A stretch of 64,000 bases of DNA from Candidatus Binatia bacterium (GTDB taxonomy: Bacteria > Desulfobacterota > Binatia > HRBIN30 > BPIQ01), in contig BPIQ01000001.1 of assembly GCA_026004195.1 (NCBI GenBank), positions 587,871 through 651,870 of the forward strand, read 5' to 3'. Positions 5,299-14,305 of the stretch are shown piece after piece. Each line of letters starts with the position of its first letter. The stretch's first letter is position 1. Below the pieces are notes generated by a model, which ran no database searches, was not told the DNA's origin, and saw only the letters and a program-made list of their open reading frames with translations. The position numbers and the translations under genes are program-made.

Positions 5299-7585
5299 AT
5301 GCCTTCGGGTTGCTCTCCGGAACGGGGGCCGCACGGGGACTCAATCCTCGTGGGACTCCTGGCCGCACTCGTTGCCGCGTTCTGGGTCCTCCGGGTCGTC
5401 CTGCCCGCCCACCGAAACGTGCCGCGGCTCGAGCTGTCCAATAGCGACCTATTCACCGAAATCTACCCCATGTCCTATCGGGCAGCGGCGTGGTGGAAAG
5501 AAGGCATCGTTCCTCTCTGGAATCCCTTCCAGTTGGCCGGCCAGCCGTTCCTCGCCGCCCAGCTCTACGGAGTGGTCTACCCCTTCCACGCCTTCTACCT
5601 CTTTTTGGACACGGCCACGGCAATCGAGGTGGTGGCGGCGTTCCACGTCTTTCTCGCAGCGGGGCTCTCTTACTTCTGTGCCCGCGAGCTCGGTCTCGGG
5701 AGGACGGGCGCTTTTCTCGGAGGTGTGGCCTTCGCTCTTTCGGGCTACACGCTCGCACAGGCCGTGTCATTTCCTTCGGGGTGTGCTGCCCTCTCGTGGC
5801 TTCCCCTGGGGATTCTCGGCGTGGAGCGGCTTTCCCGGGGTCGGAGCCGGGCTGGCCTTGGGTTCCTCTGCCTTGCCGTAGGGCTTTCTCTTCTTGCCGC
5901 GTACGCCCAGTTCTCGCTTTATGCCGTCTACGGGATCGTCGCCTATGCCCTCTGGAAGTGGCTCGGGCTCGTGCGGCGTCGTGACCCGGGGTGGAAGACT
6001 TTCCCGCTTTACGTGGCGCTCGGGGGAGCCATGGGCCTGTGTCTCGGGGCCGTTCAGTGGCTTCCCACGCTGGAGCTTCTACCCGAAGCTTCCCGGAGTC
6101 TCGAGAACCTCCCGGCTCACAGCCGTCTTTCTTTCGATTATGAGCCCCGGGAATTCTTGGAGTTGGCGCTCCACACGGACGCGGATCTGCCGACAAGGCC
6201 GTATGTCGGTGTCGTGCCTTTTCTGCTCGCCTGCGTGGGCATTTTTTCCCGTCGCGGGCGGAGCTCGGGCCTTTTCTGGGGTCTTCTCGGCGTACTTGCA
6301 GCCCTGATTTCCCTGGGCTCCCACACGCCCGTCTACGGCTGGTACAAGCAGGTTGCACCTACGGGATGGCTTCGGAACGAGCCTCACCGCATCCTGCTTC
6401 TCTACGCCTTTTCCGTTTCCCTTCTCGCGGCGCTCGGATTAGAGGAAATCGAGCGAAGCCCCGGGTGGGCTCCCATCACGAAGCTCCTCGGCGGAGCATT
6501 CGTCGTTTTTTTTCGCGCGGGTTCGTGCTTCCCCACCGGACGGCGTCTTTTTGGCCTTGCTACTCTCGGCACTTGCGCTCGCCCTCCTCGGCGTCCTGTC
6601 GAAGGGCATCCGGTCTCGGCGAGCCTTTGGGGTTCTCCTCGCCGTCCTGGCTTCGGCGGAGCTTTTTCGTGGGAACGTGGAGGCCCGGGTACACCCGATC
6701 CACAGGGCCGACCTGTTTCACCGGCACGCATCGCTTCTCGAATGGATGCGTGAGCACCAGGGTCTTTACCGGTGCTACTTCTCCTGGGGCGTGGCACCTC
6801 CAGTTTCGCTCGCGCCCAAGCAGGGGACGCTCCGCGGTGTCTTTTCCCTGACCGATCACGAGCCGCTCGCGCTAGCTCGGTACGGCCATGTGTTTTCTCT
6901 ACTCGATTCAACCGACCCAACGATCTGGGATATCTTCCGTCGGGACGGACGAATCGAGCTCGACCCGGCAAGTCCCCACCTGCGCCTCCTCGACCTCTTT
7001 TCCCTGCGCTTCGTGGCGGTGCCGCGGAACGAGCAGGCGCGGTTTCGTGCCGTTTGGGGGGAAGGCTCGGGATGGCTCGAGGCTCGATCCGCCCCGACTC
7101 TCACGCACGTCGTCTTCGTCCGCGCAAATCCCCTGCCGCGCGCCTACGTGGTCTTTTCGTGGAAGGGGGTCACCTCGCGCGAGGAAGCCTTCTCGGCTCT
7201 GACGTCGGCCGATTTCGACCCGAGGCGGGAAGCGATCGTCGAAGCTCCGAAGGGGGAACACCTCCCGGGCGAGGGGGGAAAAGGGCCCGAGCTCTTCCCG
7301 GCCAGAGTGGCAAGCTATCGCCCGACGGCAGTGGAAGTGGAGGTTTCTCTCGAGGAACCCGGGCTCCTGGTTCTCACCGACGCCTACTACCCGGGATGGA
7401 AGGCCAGGCTCGACGGCGAGCCGGCGGAGATTCTCAGAACCAACTACCTCTTTCGCGGGGTGTTCGTTCCGAGGGGGGATCACCGCGTGGTCTTCCGGTA
7501 CGAGCCAGCGTCTTTTCGCCTGGGGCTCGGGCTTTCGGCCGCGGCCCTGCTTGCACTCGGGGCTCTCCTCGCCGGAAGGAAATAG
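5299..7585 (+). pseudogene. YfhO-family polytopic membrane protein, split by a frameshift
   Basis: Two consecutive frames code for one protein. The first (5299 to about 6510) has an N-terminal helix, then LWNPFQLAGQPF and repeated membrane helices typical of the YfhO/GT-C-like family. The second (to 7585) has the remaining helices and the characteristic soluble end with LTDAYYPGWKARLDG and a final transmembrane helix. The frames join at a run of eight T at 6506-6513; seven T would give a continuous protein of about 760 residues. A sequencing or assembly indel is as likely as true inactivation. In Firmicutes YfhO helps glycosylate lipoteichoic acid; here a role in glycan assembly is only inferred. 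ATG 5224 is an alternative start. Confidence 0.8.
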
Positions 7586-12816: not shown

Positions 12817-12823
12817 GGCGCCG

Positions 12824-12851
12824 CCCTTAACAGACAGGGGCGTCTTTTCAA
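12824..12851 (-). promoter_or_regulatory. Putative promoter of the folD-gcvTHPAPB operon
   Basis: On the minus strand TTGAAA (12846-12851), a 16-base spacer and TAAGGG (12824-12829). Only seven bases separate the -10 from ATG 12816, predicting a leaderless transcript. Confidence 0.45.
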
Positions 12852-12865
12852 GGGATGGTTCGCGA

Positions 12866-13324
12866 GACGCGACGGAGCGCGTCCCTCCGGCCCGTGCGCG
12901 CGTGGGCCGGCGTCGATCGTCGCGGAGGCGGCCGGGCCCCTAGAATCGGAGGGCCACGCTCTGTCGTGGCCGCGTTCATCGATGGCACGGACCTCCATCG
13001 TCCGACACACACGGCCGCGTGCATCCCCCGCCGGAGCGCGTCCCTCCGCGGGCGCGTCCTCATCGTGGCGCGTCCCCCCCCCCCGGACGCGACGGAGCGC
13101 GTCCCTCCGGCCCGTGCGCGCGTACCCCGTGCGCCTCCGCGCGGCGCTTCGAATCCGCAATCGGAGGGCCACGCTCTGTCGTGGCCGCGTTCATCGATGG
13201 CACGGACCTCCATCGTCCGACACACACGGCCGCGTGCACCCCCCGCCGGAGCGCGTCCCTCCGCGTGGCCGTGCCTCATCCGTGGCGCGTCCCCGCCCCC
13301 CGACGCGACGGAGCGCGTCCCTCC
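12866..13324. repeat. REP/BIME-like array: five complete and two half palindromic repeats, period about 217 bases
   Basis: The gap 12817-13364 holds no gene but a 2.2-copy tandem array. Complete hairpins lie at 12866-12888, 13085-13108 and 13302-13324 (read on minus) and at 12948-12971 and 13163-13186 (read on plus); half copies lie at 13033-13047 and 13248-13262. Each complete one starts GGAGG at the 5' foot, followed by a 6-7 bp stem with a six-base loop. Stem type A is GACGCG/CGCGTC with loop CTCCGT; type B is GGCCACG/CGTGGCC with loop CTCTGT. Aligned, they differ by paired, compensating changes. The 5' GGAG foot and inverted pairing are as in REP/BIME elements. No RAYT transposase is in the window. 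Confidence 0.85.
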
Positions 13325-13339
13325 GCGTGGCGTGTCCTG

Positions 13340-13368
13340 GAACGTCGGGGACGTTCGCTCCGACCTAC
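13340..13368 (-). repeat. Third REP-like hairpin with GGAG/GTAG foot, touching the stop codon of the next gene
   Basis: On the minus strand GTAG (13365-13368) and GGAG (13358-13361) precede a perfect 7-bp stem GAACGTC/GACGTTC with a three-base loop (13340-13356). The architecture is that of the adjacent array with a different stem. Its GTAG includes the TAG stop (13365-13367) of the broken choice-of-anchor gene. It could also work as a 3' transcript-end structure, but no T-run follows. Confidence 0.6.
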
Positions 13369-14255
13369 ATTGCGGCAAGGGGGCAAGGAGTCCCGGCCAG
13401 GACCGCGTCGAACACGACCCGCACGAGAGCCGAGAGATCCTCCTCCCCCGCGCGACCGTCGCAATCCGGGTCCGCCGGGCACGCGGGATCGACACCGCCC
13501 AGGATCTTCACCCAGGCGAGCAGGTCGGCGGCGGAGACCTCGCCGTCGCAGTTCGCGTCCCATCTCGCGTCCGGCGGTCGGCAAGCGTGGGGGAACTCGT
13601 CGGCGAAGGCGTCGGCGACGAAGTGGCGGTAGCACTCGGGGAGCGAGTCGGAGTCGGCGGTGCCGTGGGAGTCCGCGACGGGCTCGGGGTCGGCGTCGGG
13701 CTCGGCACGCCGAGAACGACCTCGAGCGTCGTCATGGCCGCGCGGTCGCCGCTGTTGTTCCGGTTTCCATTGACGGCATTTCCCCAGGCCGTGAAACGAA
13801 AAGGGCCGCCGCTCGCAGGTGCCGTCCAGAGGAAACTGAAGCGAACGACGCCGTCCTCTGCAAGCTTCGGCATGTCGTGGGTCACCTCCGTGCGCCCGCC
13901 TGCGCCGATCAGGGTACGAGTCAGATCGCTGTGCGTCCCTCCCTCTAGCTAGCGTCCCGCCGTCGGCCCGGACGTTGAGGCCGCCGAAAGGCTGCCCCGG
14001 CGGGGTCACGATCTCGAAGGTGTACTCGTGCGTCGAAAGCGGCTCGACGGCGAGAGGACCCGAAAGCCGGACCTCCGGCGCCATCCCGCCGCTGTGGCAC
14101 GCCACCTGGTTGCAGCCCGCGCTGCCGAAGGCCGTCGAGGGAATTCCGCCGGAAAACCCGCGGGCCGTTCCGGCTGTACCGAGCACGCACGCGCCGCCCA
14201 GTACGAAAAGCATCGCGAATCCCGGCCATGCTTCGACTCCACTTCGCCGACGCAT
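13365..14255 (-). pseudogene. Secreted choice-of-anchor V / dockerin-like protein, broken by two compensating frameshifts
   Basis: Signal peptide from ATG 14255 (good GGGGGA ribosome-binding site). Then comes a choice-of-anchor V-like domain that starts GFSGGIP with a CNQVACHSGG motif and ends in another frame with SFLWTAPASGG and NAVNGNRNNSGD. A Pro/Thr/Ser linker follows. Back in the first frame are two dockerin/EF-hand-like repeats (DANCDGEVSAADLL and DPDCDGRAGEEDL). The first break falls at CTAGCTAG (13945-13952), where losing one CTAG restores the frame. The second falls in the linker near 13580-13600, where one base is missing. The encoded protein would be secreted, with a calcium-binding tail. 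Sequence error and decay cannot be separated here. Confidence 0.75.
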
Positions 14256-14305
14256 ACGATTTCCCCCTTCAGCTCGACCCAACACACAACCCCCGGCCGG
14301 AGTTC

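Follow-up and report, generated by a model that had tools for sequence, protein, structure and literature searches.

REP elements are short, mainly extragenic palindromes of 20-40 bp that occur in high copy number and carry, 5′ of the hairpin, a conserved unpaired tetranucleotide as their tag, or foot. The published feet are GT[AG]G and CGTC, with CnGA in class 3 (PMC6006769, PMC3733652). In the BIMEs of E. coli, y REPs are combined with z1 or z2 (PMC8266576), and heterodimers predominate in many REP families (PMC3733652). We describe here a REP array in the window (the whole 64,000-nucleotide stretch of DNA analysed), together with the population of hairpins to which it belongs. As in E. coli BIMEs, a foot is joined to a hairpin, two REP types lie in opposite orientation in tandem clusters, the one in the window lying between genes, and relatives of the element are found beside a Y1 HUH transposase; unlike in E. 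coli, the foot is GGAG and not GTAG, the 7-bp stem is perfect, without the E. coli bulge, and a RAYT was not found in the source genome (PMC8266576). With the GTAG and CGTC superfamilies (Di Nocera 2013, PMC3733652) the system shares short tagged palindromes, high copy number, inverted dimers and frequent heterodimers, and CGTC REPs, too, occur without an associated transposase. It departs from these superfamilies in its tag, in the RAYT associated with relatives of the GGAG hairpins and in the large size of its clusters (PMC3733652). Its inverted REP pairs would correspond to the non-autonomous, RAYT-served units of the Pseudomonas REPIN/RAYT system (Bertels and Rainey 2011, PMC3116915), from which it is set apart by two stem classes at fixed strand, another foot and a RAYT that is absent or missing in the source genome.

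The foot deserves separate comment. The sequence-only reading had matched the 5′ GGAG to REP elements; the foot is real, but it is neither the published GT[AG]G nor the CnGA of class 3 that complete the feet listed for the TnpA_Y1 subclasses (PMC6006769, PMC3733652). Nor is a CGTC tag present, and the element is therefore a variant outside the named GTAG and CGTC superfamilies. We found neither the GGAG foot nor the hairpin sequences in the REP literature, our coverage of which is incomplete, and an earlier mention may exist.

Anatomy of the Array

The array sits between two ORFs, filling the intergenic gap (12817..13364) from the start codon of folD (12816) to the position (13365) where the putative upstream gene has its stop codon, with both genes on the minus strand. 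It consists of five complete and two half hairpins with a period of about 217 bases. An A-type hairpin that has lost its outer pair and has one mismatch to the 24-nt consensus (12865..12888, -) is followed by a B-type hairpin (12948..12971, +) and by a half A-type hairpin in which foot, 5′ arm and loop are retained and the 3′ arm is degenerate (13024..13047, -). Next come an A-type hairpin of exact consensus sequence (13085..13108, -), another B-type hairpin (13163..13186, +) and another half A-type hairpin (13239..13262, -), and the array closes with an A-type hairpin bearing one mismatch to the 24-nt consensus (13301..13324, -). Spacings range overall from 215 to 220: the A copies are 220 and 216 bases apart, and a B-bearing unit of 114 nt repeats after 215 bases at 96% identity. 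A combined hairpin pattern has nine matches in the window, seven of them in the array, against 1.87 (sd 1.35) in shuffled sequence, and none of 100 shuffles reaches nine. The count of palindromes and the period proposed from the sequence alone are thus confirmed, as is the opposite orientation of the two stem types, every A copy in the array lying on the minus strand and every B copy on the plus strand.

The upstream ORF (13365-14285, -; 13508-13885, -) looks frameshifted and may be broken. One of its frames has a signal-peptide-like start and a dockerin-like end, another a Ser/Thr/Pro-rich linker, and neither 13365-14285 nor 13508-13885 had a Pfam match.

Hairpin Types

The REP unit of 24 nt comprises a 4-nt GGAG foot, a 7-bp stem and a 6-nt loop, a division that refines the foot-and-stem plan first proposed (GGAGG with a 6-bp A stem). 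The A stem is GGACGCG/CGCGTCC with the loop CTCCGT, and the B stem is GGCCACG/CGTGGCC with the loop CTCTGT; the two differ, as had been claimed, by compensatory swaps at two base pairs. A third type, C (GGACCCG/CGGGTCC, loop CTCTGT), occurs elsewhere in the genome. Folded as single-stranded DNA, all three types give exactly the GGAG foot, seven base pairs and the 6-nt loop. Their contexts in the source genome differ, with CC before and a G-run after A, and ATC before and GTGTTCG after both B and C. The G-runs, of the GGGGGNGGGG type, stand behind most A hairpins of this genome (e.g., L153, L167) and could perhaps form a G-quadruplex. A pseudoknot between the GGAG foot and CTCC in the loop was considered and rejected, as other REPtron loops (ATTTAT, GTCCCC) lack the complement, yet GGAG is kept. 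A known structured RNA was rejected as well, the hairpins having no match in Rfam.

A Large Population in One Genome

The source genome (G000) measures 3.63 Mb in six contigs, with a completeness of 98.94%. A full-length hairpin pattern, with degenerate letters where the types vary and at most one mismatch allowed, has 657 copies, against none for the reversed control pattern; an 18-base core gave 486 matches at up to two mismatches and its reversed control one. The genome-wide search suggested by the sequence-only reading therefore makes the array one of many, and a 24-nt palindrome in such numbers falls well within the size and abundance of REPs. About 1.04 Mb of the genome was examined for cluster structure and holds 518 elements in 94 clusters, in which inverted REPs alternate with linkers in tandem, as in BIMEs. 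Clusters are spread across the contigs, many linkers are repeated, and relatives of one linker turn up in different clusters. Within the phylum, the hairpin was found in only two of 296 other sampled genomes (ten copies and one copy), and each of the 57 nearest relatives has either no copy or one copy of the core. A phage or plasmid as the carrier of the array was rejected: comparison with phage and plasmid sequences gave no phage match and a single plasmid match of 43 bases.

Conservation of the Hairpin

Covariation was assessed in other genomes only, on 62 distinct sequences chosen by foot and loop (GGAG, CTCYGT) with no requirement for pairing. The sequences hold on average 5.69 Watson-Crick pairs out of 7, against 4.05 (sd 0.12) with the arms re-dealt. 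Paired cells make up 86.6% of the stem, against 67.2% in shuffles, cells changed on both sides number 79, against 24.3, and the covariation score is 0.518, against 0.177; none of 500 shuffles reaches the observed value for paired cells, double changes or score, although relatedness among the sequences can inflate such figures. Slid alignments of the arms score 0.05 to 0.19. Double changes occur in all seven stem pairs, four of which show at least four pair types. The proposal that the hairpin itself is conserved is upheld by these sequences. In the source genome, hairpins differ by 2.7% from their consensus and linkers of the same paralogous segments by 11% from each other, one figure being against a consensus and the other pairwise, so that the real difference is closer to twofold than to fourfold. 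The GGAG foot is conserved to the same degree as the stem among these copies, and roughly a quarter of the hairpins expected in the paralogous segments have been lost or replaced.

Orientation Within Clusters

The rule seen in the window holds in the clusters examined in the source genome, where A and either B or C within a cluster lie on opposite strands in 998 pairs and on the same strand in none. Adjacent pairs are mostly of the mixed kinds (B>A<, 157; A<B>, 141), with fewer A<A< (75) and B>B> (47), and at the start of many A<A< spacers stands what is left of a B hairpin. Loci from other phyla show the pattern again: nearly every inverted pair there joins A to a stem of the B class (GGCCACG, GGCCCCG, GGCCATG, GGTCACG and others), and same-strand pairs are mostly of a single class. 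It follows from the opposite-strand rule that A and B together, as a heterodimer, form the basic unit, and tandem growth from this heterodimer explains the rule inside clusters. Heterodimers may have been kept through avoidance of long perfect inverted repeats, an idea discussed by Di Nocera (PMC3733652). The sequence-only reading had considered a mixture of two stem types in one array unusual; this does not hold, given y with z1 or z2 in E. coli (PMC8266576) and heterodimers that are widespread (PMC3733652). Orientation by replication strand was rejected, because the polarity of neighbouring clusters can reverse within about 2 kb. Comparison of array orientation with gene direction, made with a crude gene caller, gave no clear pattern.

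RAYT Genes in Other Carriers

At least 120 stretches hold the core in exact form; they come from MAGs of about ten other phyla, including Kiritimatiellae, Lentisphaerae, Verrucomicrobia, Pirellulales, Phycisphaerae, Fermentibacteria, Chloroflexi, Eisenbacteria, Acidobacteria, Calditrichaeota, Neomarinimicrobiota, Syntrophaceae and others. All 39 carriers tested contain the core (1 to 392 matches each), and 34 contain Pfam Y1_Tnp. The strongest Y1_Tnp matches, one per genome, are other Y1 types with no GGAG hairpins nearby. Among 70 Y1 loci, two have hairpins on both sides and a third has one just past the stop codon; the three genes form one family, which matches the NCBIfam RAYT model NF047646 (E=1e-27) and the structure of E. 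coli TnpA_REP (PDB 4ER8, E=8.6e-9). A profile built from these genes found relatives in 33 of the 39 carriers. GGAG hairpins lie close to 13 of the RAYT subfamily's 16 best members, nearly all on both sides, where 0.046 per 3.3 kb would be expected from shuffled sequence; the search required GGAG, and the other three may have other feet. The REP/BIME-like identity originally suggested gains support from these RAYT genes flanked by related REPs, as it does from the hundreds of copies in the source genome. No flanking gene other than the RAYT was found to be common to the carriers.

Stems and loops of these REPtrons vary between genomes, with 7-bp stems in L280-L285, L287 and L289-L292 and 8-bp stems with 3-nt loops in L288 and L293; the GGAG foot, which the search required, is constant. 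The hairpins flanking the gene in L285 have the stems GGACGCG and GGCCACG, as in the window array. Relative to the RAYT gene, the A-class hairpin is on the other strand and the B-class hairpin on the gene strand; the exceptions are an additional copy in L283 and L292, which has one type alone. By NF047646 and by their HUH and Y---NP motifs the GGAG-associated genes are RAYTs like those of the TnpA_Y1 subclasses (Quentin 2018, PMC6006769). Their motifs DH[VI]H, WQ and YVR.NP have no exact match among the listed subclasses, of which 2.7 is nearest, and three of the genes (L282, L289, L292) have in-frame insertions of GGAG hairpins that separate the HUH motif from the tyrosine motif, as in subclass 2.4 (PMC6006769). 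A GGAG-footed, two-typed branch is thereby added to the REP/RAYT world, from MAGs of many phyla where REPs are little studied, and the 13 REPtrons, whose stems and loops differ, are naturally occurring combinations of a RAYT variant with a hairpin variant from which recognition could be mapped.

Origin and Maintenance of the Arrays

The suggested RAYT link thus holds in other carriers; in the source genome PF01797, the A1 family profile and NF047646 all failed to detect a RAYT. Three further genomes rich in the core (G058, G093 and G076, with 391, 257 and 161 matches), all fragmented MAGs, also lack the subfamily, and copy number therefore does not track the presence of a RAYT in this sample. 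We consider it very probable that non-autonomous REP elements, with relatives that RAYTs serve, make up the array as a BIME-like cluster in a genome apparently without a RAYT, and that its hairpins were seeded and then locally multiplied. By analogy with E. coli TnpA_REP, a Y1 RAYT of the HUH type would bind hairpin and 5′ foot as single-stranded DNA, cleave nearby and join the strand to another site. After a probable horizontal arrival, hairpins would have been seeded at many loci of the genome and multiplied there, presumably by recombination, into tandem clusters. They would now persist apparently without a RAYT, most likely lost or lying in an assembly gap. That the cognate gene is present in the organism and, being flanked by repeats, merely missing from the assembly, which would make this an ordinary active REPIN/RAYT system, is a serious possibility that falls somewhat short of an even chance. 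Arrays come within 32 bp of one end of contig C6 and 468 bp of one end of C4, so a RAYT gene may lie in a gap there; completeness is below 100%, and the RAYT genes of other carriers are embedded in just such arrays. The small number of contigs and the three empty profile searches speak against it.

The hairpins might instead have been retained chiefly because such RNA or DNA structures serve the cell, as E. coli BIMEs are reported to do by attenuating transcription, by protecting mRNA 3′ ends or as gyrase or IHF sites. Such a role would accord with their covariation, with conservation far above that of the linkers and with the position of the window array between two genes that point the same way. 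The conservation is, however, equally expected from recent spread or conversion, hardly any other sampled genome of the phylum has the hairpin, Rfam offers no match, and orientation flips between neighbouring clusters without being clearly tied to gene direction in the crude gene call; we regard such a role as unlikely to be the main reason for retention. It is a little less likely still that the population expanded and is maintained in a genome truly without a Y1 transposase, its GGAG REPs being spread or conserved via another enzyme or host selection. Tandem duplication and gene conversion alone, with no transposition, would suit the many clusters with repeated linkers, but scattered clusters that share linker relatives need dispersal, and the sister lineages lack the hairpin, which leaves this account improbable. 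Under the preferred reading of RAYT-served elements left in a genome apparently without their transposase, the repeats look like stranded mobile DNA, and a population of this size, nearly absent from the rest of the phylum, would offer a case in which to study REPs after transposase loss.

As a minor observation, one A hairpin copy (L063, about position 6282) seemingly lies within a reading frame resembling an Rhs/YD repeat protein.
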